This document shows, one piece after another, positions 9,643 through 19,819 of a DNA stretch of 64,000 bases. A program made the position numbers and the translations under genes. The notes under the pieces were generated by a model, which searched no databases, was not told the origin of the DNA, and saw nothing but the letters and a program-made list of their open reading frames with translations. Position 1 is the first letter of the stretch, and every line of letters begins with the position of its first letter. The stretch is from an uncultured Schlesneria sp. (GTDB taxonomy: Bacteria > Planctomycetota > Planctomycetia > Planctomycetales > Planctomycetaceae), in contig CAILLA010000304.1 of assembly GCA_903834925.1 (NCBI GenBank), positions 1 to 64,000 on the forward strand. Direction: 5' to 3'.

Positions 9643-10575
9643 ATGTTGCAGGCCGAATTAAAAATCCTTGGTGGAAAGCACCAGGGAAAGATGATCCCGC
9701 TAAACACCAAGAAATTTCTTGTTGGTCGGGAGCAGGATTGCCACTTGCGGCCAAACAGTGATCTCGTAAGTCGCCATCACTGCGTCTTTTCGATCGACGA
9801 TTACGCGATTCGGCTGCGAGACTTAGGCAGCACGAACGGCACTCGCGTCAACGGCACGAATCTTCGTGGGGAAGCCATTCTCAAGTCGGGTGATCGAGTT
9901 TCCATTGGGAAACTGGACTTGGAAGTCGTGATCCGACAGGCGCCGGCGAAGTCTGTTGCGACCCCTTCCACAGCGCCACAGGCGGCACTAACTTTGCCAT
10001 CGGTCACTCCGCCAGATGAAATGCCCGTCGCTGCTGAAGAAACCGAAACCAGCTACGAATTGGCATCGTACTCAGATCCACAGCCAGAAGAAAATGACAC
10101 TCCTGTGGTTCCGGCTGATACGGCGATTATCGGGCTTGCGGCACAGCAACAATACCTGCAGCAGCAACCGATGATGCCTGGTTATCCGCAAGGGTATCCA
10201 GGGTATCCAGGAATGGTTCCACAAGGGTATCCAATGCCCGGTGCCTATATGCCTCAACAATACCCTCAATATCCGCCGGGTTATCCACAGCAGCCTGGAT
10301 ATATGCCCCAGATGGGTTATCCGATGGGATATCCCCAAATGATGCCAATGCAGCAAGGTTATCCTGGTATGGCTGCTGCGGTCCCTGTAGCCGAGCCTGA
10401 ACCTGAGCCCGAAAGCCCCGCAGGGGTCGACTTATCGGTGAAGTTGCCAAATCCGGAAGAGACCGGTGCGAAAGTCGTCACTCCGCCGCAGGCCGGCGCG
10501 GGAGCAAAAAAGGAAGAAAAACCTTCTAATACCGCTGCCGACATCATCAAGCAATATATGAATCGTCGTACATGA
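9643..10575 (+). CDS. FHA domain protein with Pro/Gly/Tyr-rich repeats
   Basis: Residues about 20-92 form a forkhead-associated domain, which binds phosphothreonine peptides. It carries the expected GRE, SRHHCVF and LGSTNGTRVNG motifs. A Pro/Ala linker is followed by a Gln/Tyr/Pro/Gly-rich stretch (about 165-245) made of imperfect GYP and YPGY repeats, likely disordered. The C-terminus ends with a short Lys/Glu-rich segment and ADIIKQYMNRR. Planctomycetes carry many Ser/Thr kinases, so this protein may be a reader of their phosphorylation; its partner is unknown. The ATG at 9643 follows AGGGAG at about 10 nt. The 267-bp gap upstream shows only a possible weak promoter. Confidence 0.8.
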   Translation: MLQAELKILGGKHQGKMIPLNTKKFLVGREQDCHLRPNSDLVSRHHCVFSIDDYAIRLRDLGSTNGTRVNGTNLRGEAILKSGDRVSIGKLDLEVVIRQAPAKSVATPSTAPQAALTLPSVTPPDEMPVAAEETETSYELASYSDPQPEENDTPVVPADTAIIGLAAQQQYLQQQPMMPGYPQGYPGYPGMVPQGYPMPGAYMPQQYPQYPPGYPQQPGYMPQMGYPMGYPQMMPMQQGYPGMAAAVPVAEPEPEPESPAGVDLSVKLPNPEETGAKVVTPPQAGAGAKKEEKPSNTAADIIKQYMNRRT

Positions 10576-14350: not shown

Positions 14351-15091
14351 CTACAAAGCCACGGTTGATGGCGTCTGGTGTTGATGGATCGCTTCGACAA
14401 GTCGGTTTGGATTGAGTGGTTTTTCGAACCAGGCGTTAATTCCATCCCGTCCACCAACGGTGACACCGACATCGTCCGCTCGATGTCCGCTCATCCCGAA
14501 GATGGTCAGGTCGTTCAGTTTTGAGCTTTTGCGGATCATCGACAGCATCTGAGGACCGTCAATCTTCGGCATCATCATGTCGAGCAGCACCACATCCGGC
14601 CGTGGTTCGGATGACGACAGTCTGACGAGTGCCTGTTCTCCATCGGGTACGGTATCGACGACACAACCATCCATTCGTAACAAACCAGCAAGTAACTCTC
14701 GCTCGTTGTCATCGTCTTCCACGATCAGCACTCGAGCCAGCGGATGCGGATCTGTTGGGACCAATTCGATCGGCGCATGGTTACGATCAATTTCTTTCAG
14801 TCTGGTCAGCATCTGCAAATAGGTCTGGTGAGCCCGATCAAGATCACCCCGGCGGATCAGTCGTTCGTACATTTCGATAAACAGAGTAATCGCGTTCAGA
14901 TCATTCCTCAGTTTGTGATTCGAGGGTGGCGGGTCTGTCGAAGTCAGAAGTTCGCCACGAATAATTTGAATGTTGGCCGGGGCCTGAATCCCCAGTCGAG
15001 TGCGATTGCCGTTCGCCTGCAGAATTTTAACAGTGACGCCGATCGTCGGAAATACGATCTCTTCGTCACATCGCCGAGAAACGACGAGCAT
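14351..15091 (-). CDS. CsrA-like / helical / response-regulator receiver fusion
   Basis: Residues 1-48 are a CsrA/RsmA RNA-binding domain: MLVVSRRCDEEIVF, VKIL and TRLGIQAPANIQIIRGE match the family, including Arg45 at the position used for RNA contact. Residues about 57-105 form a helical hairpin starting HKLRNDLNAI, which resembles a histidine-kinase dimerisation helix with H59. Residues about 118-240 are a receiver domain with acidic E125/D126, phospho-acceptor D171 in VVLLDMMMPKIDG, and the FEKPLN lysine. The protein could couple phosphorylation to translational control of mRNAs. AAAGGA sits 8 nt before the ATG. It is divergent from a giant hybrid kinase gene, a likely partner. Confidence 0.88.
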   Translation of the reverse strand: MLVVSRRCDEEIVFPTIGVTVKILQANGNRTRLGIQAPANIQIIRGELLTSTDPPPSNHKLRNDLNAITLFIEMYERLIRRGDLDRAHQTYLQMLTRLKEIDRNHAPIELVPTDPHPLARVLIVEDDDNERELLAGLLRMDGCVVDTVPDGEQALVRLSSSEPRPDVVLLDMMMPKIDGPQMLSMIRKSSKLNDLTIFGMSGHRADDVGVTVGGRDGINAWFEKPLNPNRLVEAIHQHQTPSTVAL

Positions 15092-15409
15092 GATGGAATT
15101 CCTTTTCTAGAGATGGAACATTTCCATCCCGTGCCTGAATCCTTGGCGGAATCGTTCAACGATTCCTAACCGTCCTTGACGGGCCCCCCCGACATCTTGC
15201 CGGCTACGGCAGTCTCTTCACTGCTTTAACCCTGCCAATACAATGCCAGATCAAATTAAAATGTCAAGACGAAAGTGGATAAGCTTGTCTGGACCACTTG
15301 CTCTGGCCGTTCGAATTGTAAAAATGACACGATGAATTCGGCATGAGGCGTTTCTCGGGGCCGTCATTCGGGACGATCTGTCGTCACGCTCGATACGGAG
15401 ATTTGGCGT
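15092..15409. other. Divergent intergenic region between two signalling genes
   Basis: This 318-bp region separates the divergently transcribed CsrA-receiver and hybrid kinase genes and must hold both promoters. A C7 run occurs near 15184. No clear -35/-10 pair, operator or RNA gene is recognised. Confidence 0.5.
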
Positions 15410-18400
15410 ATGTCCACAAGTGAAATACTGGCCATTAAATCACCCGCAGTCGAATCGGTTCCAACGTATATTGTCGGGATCGGGGCTTCTGCGGGGGGAC
15501 TGGAAGCGCTCGAACGACTGTTCGATAAGATGCCAACCAGGACGGGAATGGCATTTGTCGTTGTCCAGCATCTTTCGCCCGACTTCAAAAGTCTGATGGA
15601 TGAACTGCTGTCTCGCCGGACAACTCTACCGGTTCATCGGGTCGAGAACGGGATGGTCGTCGAGCCGAATTCGATCTATCTGATTCCCCCCAGACGTGAA
15701 ATGATCTTTTCGGATGGAAAGCTGTTGCTGACCGAAGTCGACCCGCATCAGGGACTGACGCTGCCAATCGATTACTTCTTCCGTTCCTTGGCACAAAGTT
15801 GTGGTCGTAATGCGATTGCGATCGTCCTGTCGGGAACCGGCAGCGACGGTTCACGCGGTATCCAGGATGTTCATCGTGCCGGTGGGCTCGTCATTGCCCA
15901 GACCGGGCGTTCCGCGAAGTTCGACGGCATGCCTGGCGCGGCTCGTGAAACGGGTGTCGTCGATCTGTCACTTGATCCGGAAGACATTCCGACGGCACTG
16001 GTGCAGTATGGAGTCCGCCACGATATCGGCGATCTGTCGGCCCAGTTCGAAACGGTCCCCGCCGACGAAGAAGGGCTGGCGGCGATCCTGAGACTGCTGC
16101 GAGATCAATACGGCATCGACTTTTCGTTTTACAAGCTGAATACCGTCGTCAGGCGAACGGAACGGCGGCTGCAACTGACTCGCATCGATTCGGTCAAAGA
16201 TTATCTTCAACGACTTGATCGTGACCCGGTTGAGCTGAATGCGTTGTATCATGACCTTTTGGTCGGAGTCACACGATTCTTTCGTGATGAAGAAGCCTTC
16301 GATCGACTTGGCGAAGAAATTGATCAGTCGCTGAAGAATCACGAACCAAATACAGAGTTTCGAGCGTGGGTCGCGGGATGTGCGACAGGCGAAGAAGCGT
16401 ATTCAATCGCCATTCTGCTTGACGAACGAATTCTTGCCAGCGGCAAAGACATCACGGCTCGTGTTTTTGCCACGGATGTGCATCGAGTGTCGTTGGATCA
16501 GGCCGGGCACGGCGTCTACAGTCAGGAAAGCATCGGAAATATCTCGCCCGATCGACTGGTGACGTATTTCACCCAAAATGAACGTGGCTTCACTGTCAAT
16601 CAGCGAATCCGGCAGATGGTCGTGTTTGCGCCGCACAATATCATCAAGGACGCACCATTCACCCGGATGGAACTGGTGACCTGTCGTAATCTGCTGATTT
16701 ATCTGCAGCCCGGCGCACAAAAGAAGGCGCTGTCGTTGTTTCATTTCGGATTGAAGGCCAACGGAATTCTGTTTCTTGGTCCGAGCGAAAGCACTGGCGA
16801 ACTGGAGGACGAGTTCGAGCCAATCGACCGGCATTGGAATATCTATCGCAAGCGACGTGACGTCCGGCTCAATTTCGAATTGCGACCAACAATGGCGACG
16901 TCAGGTCGATCATTAAGAGCGTCGGGCTTGCCGGAATACATCACACCTGCAGGACGCGGAATCGACTCTCATATTGCCGGTGCTTACGACACGTTGCTGG
17001 CCGAGTTCATGCCGCCCGGTCTGTTGATCGACAGTTCCAATCGATTGCTGCATGTTTTTGGTGACGCGGGCAAGTACCTTCGCCATCCTTCGGGCCGTAC
17101 CAGCAACGATGTTTTGGACTGCATGGAATCGACGCTCAAACTGGCGGTCGTGGGTGCGATCCGACGCACTCAGACGACACAGCAACCCGTTCATCTGAGC
17201 GGTTTGACTGTTGGAAATGAAATCATAGATCTGGGGGTTCGGCCCGTCAACAATTCCAAAGTCGACGTCACCGATTATCTGATCACGTTCATTCCGAATG
17301 ACGTCAAGAAGATGCAGGCGCTACCCGAGTCTGAAACCTGGATCGACATGCAGCATGTTTCCGGCCGCGAAATCCAGGAACTGGAAGGGGAACTTCGTCG
17401 CGCCAAAGAAAATACTCAGGCACTGATCGAAGAGTTAGAAACCAGTAACGAAGAGCTTCAGGCGACGAATGAGGAACTCGTCGCGTCAAACGAGGAATTG
17501 CAAAGCACCAACGAAGAACTTCATTCAGTCAATGAAGAACTTTATACGGTGAACGCGGAACATCAACGCAAGATCCAGCAGTTGACTGTGCTGACCGACG
17601 ACATGGAAAACCTGCTGCACAGCACCCAGGTTCATACCCTGTTTCTCGATCGTCAACTTCGGATTCGTCGGTTCACCCCTCGGATTGGTGAGATCTTCAG
17701 TCTCGTGCTGCACGATATCGGTCGATCGATTGAAGCGTTTCACAATCGACTTCAATACGCTCATCTGCTGGGCGACCTTCGACTGGTCCTGGAAACGGGC
17801 CGGCTTCAAGAATCCGAAATTCAGGATGCCGGTGGGCGCTGGTTCCTGATGCGGATTCTCCCTTATATGACCGATAAGGGGAGCGAAGGTGTTGTGCTGA
17901 CGTTGACCGATATCGATGTGACGCGTCGAGCGCAGATGAACCTGAACTGCGTCATCGATTTCTTTCCGCATGCCGTTGTCGCCACGAACGAGCAGGGGCT
18001 GATTCAGATCGTCAATCAACGGACTCAGTCGATCTTTGGTTATGAAGCGGCGGAAATGATTGGTCAACCGGTCGAAATCCTCTTGCCGGAACGAAGGCGA
18101 GCAAAGCACCAGCTGGATCGTGAAGAATACGCCAAGCATCCAAAGCCGCGCGTGATGGAACTGCTGGGCGAGTTATACGCAATCCGCAAAAACGGCGAAG
18201 AATTCCCGGTGGAAGTCGGCCTGAACTCGATCAACACCGAGAAGGGCCTGCTGATGATCGCGTCAATCAACGACATCACGGTCAGGCAGGCGACGCAACT
18301 CGAACTCGCTCGACGCGAACAGCAGTTGCGGCTGGTGATCAATGGTGTTCCGATGTTGATCGCTTATATCGACACCGATCGCGTCTATCGTTACGTCAAC

Positions 18401-19819
18401 AATTTCTACTGTGAAAAGCTGGGGCTGACTCCGAACGAGGTTTGTAACAAGCGAGTCCAGAGCGTTGTTGGTGAAGCGGTTTATGCTCAAAAGAAACCAC
18501 TTCTCGACCGGGTCTTCGCAGGAGAATCCGTCACCGCCGAATTATGCAGGCACTTCCCGACAGATTCACCCGATCATGAGCACTGGATTCTCGCGCATTA
18601 CGTCCCTGATCGAGATGAGAAGGGGGTCGTCCGCGGCAGCTTCGTGGCGATGAACGATATCACCGAACTGAAAGACCTGGTCACTTCTAAACAGAAACAA
18701 GTCGAACAGCGAGACCTGTTTTTGGCGACGCTATCGCATGAATTACGGAATCCGCTAGGAGCGGTAACTTCGGCGCTGCGGTTGCTTCAGTCGGGTCGCG
18801 ACAATTCCGAACTTCTGCAGAAGACCCTCGCTGCGATCGATCGCCAGACCAGCCAGATGACGGCGCTGCTTGATGATCTGCTGGATGTTTCCCGCGTCAC
18901 CAAAGGGAAAATTGAACTGCGTCGATCCCCCGTCGAATTGGAGCATATCGTTCGTGAATCGGTTGAATCGGCCATGCCGATGTTCGAAAGGCGCAACCAG
19001 CAGGTTCAAGTCTTGATCGTCGGCGAACCCGCCTGGGTCGATGGAGACGCGGTCCGGTTGCGTCAGATCGTCATTAATCTTCTGACAAATGCCTCCCGTT
19101 ACAGTCCGCCGGGTGAATCTGTTGTCGTCTCGCTGGAATCTCAATCGAATTCGTCAGGGTTCATCCGCGTTAAAGATCACGGGATCGGGATTCCTCGCGA
19201 AATGCAGGAACGGATCTTTGAGCCATTCGAGCAACTTCGGCGGACTCATAACGAGGCCTCAGAAGGACTTGGTCTGGGTCTGTCGCTCTCGCGTCGACTG
19301 GCCGAACTGCATGGCGGCAACGTCACGGTTTTCAGTCAGGGCGAAGGTCAGGGAAGTGAGTTCACCGTTCAATTGCCACTGATTGAACCGCCGCATGATG
19401 ACGGCGACTTCCAGCATTCAATCCCCGAACAGACGGCTGAGCGACCCCGGTCGATCGTTCTTGTGGAAGACAACGAAGACGCCCGTGATCTATTGCGGCA
19501 GTTGTTGGAGTTCGAAGATTTTGAAGTGGAAGTGGCTGCCGATGGCCTGAGCGGACTGGAACTGATCCGCCAGAAGCGACCGCAAGTGGCGATGATCGAT
19601 ATCGGTCTGCCCCGAATGAACGGCCACGAGATTGCCCGGACACTACGTGGCGAAGGCGTAACGAGCGTTCTGATTGCCTTAACCGGTTACGGCCAGGATT
19701 CAGATCGAGCGGCAGCACTCGTCGCCGGTTTCGACGAACACGTTACAAAACCCGTGGATTTTGACGCGTTGGTACGATTGCTTGAACGAGTCGTTGCGGC
19801 GAAGTTGAAACAGAAATAG
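15410..19819 (+). CDS. CheB-CheR-PAS-histidine kinase-receiver signalling protein
   Basis: A 1469-residue fusion. Residues about 18-200 are a CheB methylesterase with the triad S27 (GASAGG), H54 (VVQHLSPD) and D146 (SGTGSDGSRG). Residues about 215-480 are a CheR methyltransferase with the SAM motif AWVAGCATGEEAYSIA. A coiled coil of repeated SNEELQ/TNEEL units lies near 655-705. Two or three PAS domains follow (about 725-1090), then a HisKA domain with SHELRNPLGA, a HATPase domain ending in GLGLGLSLSRRLAELHGG, and a C-terminal receiver with MIDIGLPRMNGHE. No chemotaxis genes are nearby, so it probably senses signals outside flagellar chemotaxis. GGAGATTT precedes the ATG. The divergent CsrA-receiver gene is a candidate output. 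Confidence 0.93.
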   Translation: MSTSEILAIKSPAVESVPTYIVGIGASAGGLEALERLFDKMPTRTGMAFVVVQHLSPDFKSLMDELLSRRTTLPVHRVENGMVVEPNSIYLIPPRREMIFSDGKLLLTEVDPHQGLTLPIDYFFRSLAQSCGRNAIAIVLSGTGSDGSRGIQDVHRAGGLVIAQTGRSAKFDGMPGAARETGVVDLSLDPEDIPTALVQYGVRHDIGDLSAQFETVPADEEGLAAILRLLRDQYGIDFSFYKLNTVVRRTERRLQLTRIDSVKDYLQRLDRDPVELNALYHDLLVGVTRFFRDEEAFDRLGEEIDQSLKNHEPNTEFRAWVAGCATGEEAYSIAILLDERILASGKDITARVFATDVHRVSLDQAGHGVYSQESIGNISPDRLVTYFTQNERGFTVNQRIRQMVVFAPHNIIKDAPFTRMELVTCRNLLIYLQPGAQKKALSLFHFGLKANGILFLGPSESTGELEDEFEPIDRHWNIYRKRRDVRLNFELRPTMATSGRSLRASGLPEYITPAGRGIDSHIAGAYDTLLAEFMPPGLLIDSSNRLLHVFGDAGKYLRHPSGRTSNDVLDCMESTLKLAVVGAIRRTQTTQQPVHLSGLTVGNEIIDLGVRPVNNSKVDVTDYLITFIPNDVKKMQALPESETWIDMQHVSGREIQELEGELRRAKENTQALIEELETSNEELQATNEELVASNEELQSTNEELHSVNEELYTVNAEHQRKIQQLTVLTDDMENLLHSTQVHTLFLDRQLRIRRFTPRIGEIFSLVLHDIGRSIEAFHNRLQYAHLLGDLRLVLETGRLQESEIQDAGGRWFLMRILPYMTDKGSEGVVLTLTDIDVTRRAQMNLNCVIDFFPHAVVATNEQGLIQIVNQRTQSIFGYEAAEMIGQPVEILLPERRRAKHQLDREEYAKHPKPRVMELLGELYAIRKNGEEFPVEVGLNSINTEKGLLMIASINDITVRQATQLELARREQQLRLVINGVPMLIAYIDTDRVYRYVNNFYCEKLGLTPNEVCNKRVQSVVGEAVYAQKKPLLDRVFAGESVTAELCRHFPTDSPDHEHWILAHYVPDRDEKGVVRGSFVAMNDITELKDLVTSKQKQVEQRDLFLATLSHELRNPLGAVTSALRLLQSGRDNSELLQKTLAAIDRQTSQMTALLDDLLDVSRVTKGKIELRRSPVELEHIVRESVESAMPMFERRNQQVQVLIVGEPAWVDGDAVRLRQIVINLLTNASRYSPPGESVVVSLESQSNSSGFIRVKDHGIGIPREMQERIFEPFEQLRRTHNEASEGLGLGLSLSRRLAELHGGNVTVFSQGEGQGSEFTVQLPLIEPPHDDGDFQHSIPEQTAERPRSIVLVEDNEDARDLLRQLLEFEDFEVEVAADGLSGLELIRQKRPQVAMIDIGLPRMNGHEIARTLRGEGVTSVLIALTGYGQDSDRAAALVAGFDEHVTKPVDFDALVRLLERVVAAKLKQK

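Follow-up and report, generated by a model that had tools for sequence, protein, structure and literature searches.

CsrA is a global regulator of mRNA, best known to be controlled by small RNAs that sequester it and by FliW, which acts at the protein level. It is a beta-strand dimer that acts on mRNA leaders, whereas ANTAR, another RNA-binding output, is a helical antiterminator domain found at the C-terminus. Spo0B and ChpT lack a functional kinase domain and use a DHp-type histidine hairpin to shuttle phosphate from one receiver to another; both are separate proteins with a degenerate ATPase-like domain. E. coli CsrA presumably consists of a single CsrA domain, which does not fit a classification as an orphan response regulator. 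Such a classification is nevertheless given in a list of these regulators (PMC12471899). In the BarA-UvrY/GacS-GacA pathway a kinase relay leads through CsrB to the control of CsrA, and BarA-UvrY is described as acting via transcription of the small RNAs that sequester CsrA (PMC10277598). CsrA is already known as a response-regulator output domain: a paper from 2007, with reference to Galperin 2006, includes both ANTAR and CsrA among the RNA-binding outputs (PMC2222644). No functional study of a CsrA-receiver protein was recognised among the top matches in the open-access literature.

The gene described here lies in a 64,000-nucleotide stretch of DNA from an uncultured Schlesneria sp. (the whole stretch analysed, hereafter the window). 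The preliminary description, which gave no strand, proposed a CsrA domain fused to a receiver domain through a kinase-like helical hairpin. The open reading frame is on the minus strand, and both the Pfam domains and the helices modelled by AlphaFold2 bear out the order CsrA-hairpin-receiver. The features of the gene are as follows.

14351–15091, minus strand: CsrA-hairpin-receiver gene, 246 aa (ORF list; coordinates fit exactly)
14942–15091, minus strand: CsrA domain, residues 1–50, with RNA-contact positions R6 and R45 present (Pfam PF02599)
14777–14926, minus strand: two-helix hairpin, residues 56–105 (AlphaFold2; pLDDT mostly high, dropping towards the two ends)
14888–14923, minus strand: H-box-like stretch, residues 57–68 (hhalign against the H-boxes of neighbouring kinases)
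14915–14917, minus strand: H59 codon, proposed second phospho-histidine of a relay (conservation; putative function)
14378–14734, minus strand: receiver domain, residues 120–238 (Pfam PF00072 and VIA-align)
14579–14581, minus strand: D171 codon, phospho-acceptor Asp position (conservation; putative phosphorylation)

The CsrA domain matches PF02599 over residues 1–50 (E 4.7e-12, 46.1 bits against a curated cut-off of 27). These residues align to E. coli CsrA (1y00; phmmer) with R45 at the position of E. coli R44, and we take the R6 and R44 positions of CsrA to be those that contact RNA. The receiver matches PF00072 over residues 121–235 (E 1.2e-20, above the cut-off) and has the catalytic set E125, D126, D171, S201 and K224. 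Its best solved-structure match is 3gl9_B (VIA-align, Z 19.8, rmsd 1.6 over 120 residues); the structure searches covered the receiver, their listed matches being filled by receiver domains, and a lengthy alignment to 9ckx_A was disregarded as poor (rmsd 15.4). AlphaFold2 models had a mean pLDDT of 79.9 with 22 aligned members and of 90.0 with 90 (pTM 0.65), the latter with a normal receiver fold and hairpin helices at residues 56–81 and 84–105. In the monomer model, the CsrA strands at either end of the domain lack a partner, as a domain-swapped dimer would require. HisKA matches residues 59–95 below threshold (E 0.043, 14.3 bits against a cut-off of 26.9) and HATPase_c is absent (Pfam, E up to 1), so the protein was rejected as a histidine kinase. 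Its predicted domains make it a response regulator. Its length of 246 aa, with hairpin and receiver, also rules out a stand-alone small CsrA.

Several differences set this protein apart from the described systems. The hairpin is fused to CsrA and a terminal receiver, whereas Spo0B and ChpT are separate proteins, and on our reading the protein would work like a Spo0B-type relay fused to its output. The phosphorelay proposed below would have the CsrA polypeptide as its direct target; BarA-UvrY, likewise a kinase relay ending in CsrA control, instead acts via small RNAs. Control of this CsrA protein by FliW was rejected, since the window's genome has no match to FliW. The CsrA output is N-terminal here, whereas ANTAR is C-terminal; the ANTAR regulators AmiR, NasT, EutV and PdtaR likewise place an RNA-binding output under receiver control (PMC12471899). 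The CsrA-output regulators of the Galperin 2006 census show the same joining of receiver and CsrA in one protein; their list entry, the basis of this comparison, describes no hairpin, no H59 or N63, no kinase pairing and no H59-lacking paralogues (PMC2222644).

CsrA-hairpin-receiver proteins are an established family of the class to which the source organism belongs. The preliminary description had called for a survey of the architecture in planctomycetes, and a profile search found CsrA-plus-hairpin genes in 101 of the 397 sampled genomes of the class (107 genomes match the CsrA-hairpin profile at 1e-17; six, with a match ending before the hairpin end, were dropped). Among the matches listed for a sample of the phylum (392 genomes), hairpin-length ones come from 16 genomes, each belonging to the class. 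In a second phylum (that of the genome holding a Syntrophus contig) they occur in 0 of 297 genomes, and one match is to CsrA only. Scanning genome contigs with a peptide pattern recovered eight full-length relatives, all planctomycete by title, which include uncultured Schlesneria (93–96% identical) and Blastopirellula marina DSM 3645 (38%). The B. marina member, L046, adjoins a gene for a DHp-HATPase-receiver kinase. A one-off fusion or sequencing artefact was rejected given the number of full-length relatives.

Conservation was assessed in 107 non-identical members, with 14 of 121 profile-matching ORFs left out that end before position 95. The RNA-contact positions R6 and R45 are kept in 107 and 106 members, respectively, and E47 in 102. 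In the hairpin, 94 members retain H59 and 94 retain N63. The residue after H59 is Asp or Glu in only 43 of the 107; an acidic residue is usual after the phospho-histidine of kinases. In the receiver, D126 is kept in 99 members, D171 in 101, Ser or Thr at position 201 in 100, W221 in 101 and K224 in 97, and the same number, 97, have D126, D171 and K224 together. D171 is the phospho-acceptor position, and the intact phospho-Asp noted earlier is confirmed. Pfam searches at E up to 0.1 of a 90-member subset picked at <75% identity identified CsrA in 90, Response_reg in 84 and HisKA in 12, with no HATPase among the 25 Pfam families listed. Receivers are degenerate or missing in 10 members, nine of which also lack H or N; L150 keeps both. 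Four CsrA-hairpin proteins of 140–151 aa (L144, L145, L150 and L169) have no receiver, and L144, L145 and L169 also lack the His. The CsrA domain of L019 has Asp at the position of the RNA-contact residue R45.

A large hybrid kinase gene is divergent from the window gene, and the two share an intergenic region in which a promoter scan gave no call above chance.

15410–19819, plus strand: CheB-CheR-PAS-HisKA-HATPase-receiver hybrid kinase, 1469 aa, divergent neighbour and proposed partner (Pfam)
19454–19783, plus strand: kinase C-terminal receiver, residues 1349–1458, proposed first relay aspartate (PF00072, E 3e-23)
15092–15409, no strand: intergenic region common to both divergent genes (ORF positions)

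The link to a neighbouring kinase, also suggested earlier, is conserved across the family. Neighbour kinases were found with profiles made from the adjacent CheB-CheR kinases, in a subset of the fetched loci: 14 of 87 loci that held no family gene after ORF picking and clustering were left out, and two duplicates among 79 genes were removed to give 77 (76 with an assigned H59 status). A histidine kinase is immediately adjacent to 42 of these 77 distinct family genes and within three genes of 56, and 21 have no kinase within three genes. Kinases of the window type, with CheB or CheR domains, adjoin 30 of the 77. HATPase carriers make up 44 of 154 genes at distance 1 compared with 4 of 185 genes more than three genes away (counts that include two duplicate loci). 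In the window's genome CheB was found at only four places, two of them in long ORFs, so the pairing with a CheB-CheR kinase is unlikely to be due to chance. The 9 Mb genome has 11 CsrA-domain places, most in small ORFs of their own, an unusual paralogue expansion for one genome. Kinase, Che and receiver domains are absent beside the 10 other places (up to 5 kb per side, shorter at contig ends). We consider it likely that this CsrA-output response regulator is served by the neighbouring kinase.

The presence of H59 goes with the type of kinase encoded nearby. Of the kinases immediately next to H59-bearing members, 39 of 39 are hybrids that end in a receiver, and the three next to H59-lacking members are all non-hybrids. 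Among kinases within three genes, hybrids and non-hybrids number 47 and 2 for H59-bearing members versus 1 and 5 for H59-lacking members (Fisher 3.5e-5). Across the window's genome, hybrids account for 13 of the 30 kinases compared (best 30 of 52 HATPase matches). The exceptions are L156 and L162, in which H59 is present and the nearest kinase has no C-terminal receiver, and L142, in which H59 is absent and the nearest kinase is apparently a hybrid broken into two ORFs. At L142:6209-10251, a CheB-CheR-PAS ORF and a HisKA-HATPase-receiver ORF stand in tandem with a short gap, like one split gene.

Both kinds of CsrA-receiver gene occur together in four tandem clusters, where an H59-lacking and an H59-bearing gene flank two or three CheB-CheR proteins.

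L130:4382-16500, tandem CheB-CheR cluster between two CsrA-receiver genes
L157:3572-15654, tandem CheB-CheR cluster between two CsrA-receiver genes
L141:3633-16399, tandem CheB-CheR cluster between two CsrA-receiver genes
L127:4891-15275, tandem CheB-CheR cluster between two CsrA-receiver genes

In each of the four, a kinase without a receiver stands closest to the H59-lacking gene and a kinase with a receiver closest to the H59-bearing gene, as confirmed by Pfam searches of the C-terminal 520 residues of the kinases. The middle protein of L130 (8663-11230) has CheR and PAS domains, and its C-terminal 520 residues contain no kinase domain. In a phylogenetic tree, the loss of H59 is clustered and the tandem H59-lacking genes form one clade, so that an independent-pairs test of H59 against kinase type has too few pairs to reach significance. 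The contrast represents roughly two independent losses, one in the tandem clade and one in the clade of L163, L164 and L169.

Hybrid kinases normally need a histidine phosphotransferase. The window's genome has eight HPt places, of which five lie within ORFs of hybrid kinases and one within an ORF of 141 aa; with HPt domains mostly in hybrid ORFs, a hybrid kinase that has none needs one from elsewhere. H59 would supply the phosphotransferase that the hybrid kinase needs, and a kinase without a receiver would need none, which is where H59 is gone. From the architecture, the conservation, the gene pairing and the fit of kinase type to H59 status, we infer, with a probability of about 50%, that the CsrA-output response regulator and the divergent kinase form a four-step phosphorelay (His-Asp-His-Asp). 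The CheB-CheR-PAS-DHp-HATPase-receiver kinase would phosphorylate its own His and then its own receiver, from which phosphate would pass to H59 in the CsrA protein's DHp-like hairpin. H59 would hand the phosphate to D171 in the receiver of the same protein, and the phosphorylated receiver would alter mRNA binding by a putative CsrA dimer, with a sign of control that is likewise putative. The preliminary description had pointed to a dimerisation/phosphotransfer helix. Since the kinases beside H59-bearing members have their own receiver, a role as second relay histidine suits H59 better than one in a generic dimerisation helix, and we consider the case for H59 as the relay histidine to be evenly balanced. 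More tentatively, and with the odds slightly against it, the two genes may constitute a complete relay that ends in CsrA, with the second His and Asp in one polypeptide, a sister class with a receiverless kinase in which the His was lost, and control without small RNAs or FliW.

The hairpin itself could be a TPR-like or other helical spacer with a coincidental H-box, the kinase adjacency reflecting the receiver alone. The preliminary description likened its HKLRNDLNAI stretch to a kinase helix, and this likeness is borne out for the H-box. A profile of 90 hairpins with both His and Asn matches the DHp region of the neighbouring kinases with a probability of 96, H59 being in register with the phospho-histidine (hhalign). 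Column-shuffled (5 of 5) and reversed hairpins gave no kinase match, and the hairpins of H59-lacking members gave no match to kinase H-boxes. The similarity found by hhalign is confined to residues 57–68, the hairpin half that holds them scoring 96.9 and the remainder nil, and the PDB sequences that the hairpin profile ranked were TPR-like and designed helical proteins, with no kinase. Both results are as expected of a spacer, and given them we call the element an H-box-bearing hairpin, which seems a better term than proven DHp domain. However, across 22 members no hairpin column other than H59 and N63 is invariant, and the sole match to the hairpin profile in the window's genome other than itself is a stretch of contig C148 that just precedes a HATPase (weak, E 0.0024), which makes a mere spacer quite unlikely.

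Potentially, this could also be a plain two-component system in which D171 receives phosphate straight from the kinase, the hairpin serves to dimerise the protein, and H59 and N63 act in cis on the receiver, by docking to it or dephosphorylating it. Loss of the H/N motif accompanies loss of R131 and E132 on receiver alpha1 (kept in 75 and 73 of 89 members with the motif, compared with 0 and 0 of 8 without it), and these are the top two of 225 columns scanned for association with H/N loss, a pattern that suggests contact of the motif with its own receiver. The receiver is also intact in H59-lacking members that adjoin non-hybrid kinases. Nevertheless, the co-variation is not significant when phylogeny is taken into account, independent pairs being too few, and direct transfer leaves unexplained why 39 of 39 immediate kinases of H59-bearing members are hybrids; we regard it as rather unlikely. 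Between the kinase receiver and the receiver of the CsrA protein, no significant co-variation was detected at alpha1 (p 0.07). Very unlikely, in our view, is a protein in which CsrA is kept as a dimerisation module or decoy and which serves as a phosphate sink or kinase scaffold, with a target other than mRNA. The four receiverless members and L019, without the RNA-contact Arg, indicate that parts of the protein can be lost, but the near-universal retention of R6 and R45 across the family argues against this role.

If the phosphorelay reading is correct, a CsrA switched by a dedicated phosphorelay would couple an environmental sensor to the fate of mRNAs in a single step, and planctomycetes would have post-transcriptional two-component signalling without a small RNA or FliW. 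The natural variants, with and without H59 and with and without a kinase receiver, make the relay testable with few mutants. Such wiring could help explain how the 11 CsrA copies of the genome stay apart. Elsewhere in the window, the ORF at 9643-10575, read by eye from the ORF list, has an FHA-like start and a repetitive middle rich in Pro, Gly, Tyr and Gln.
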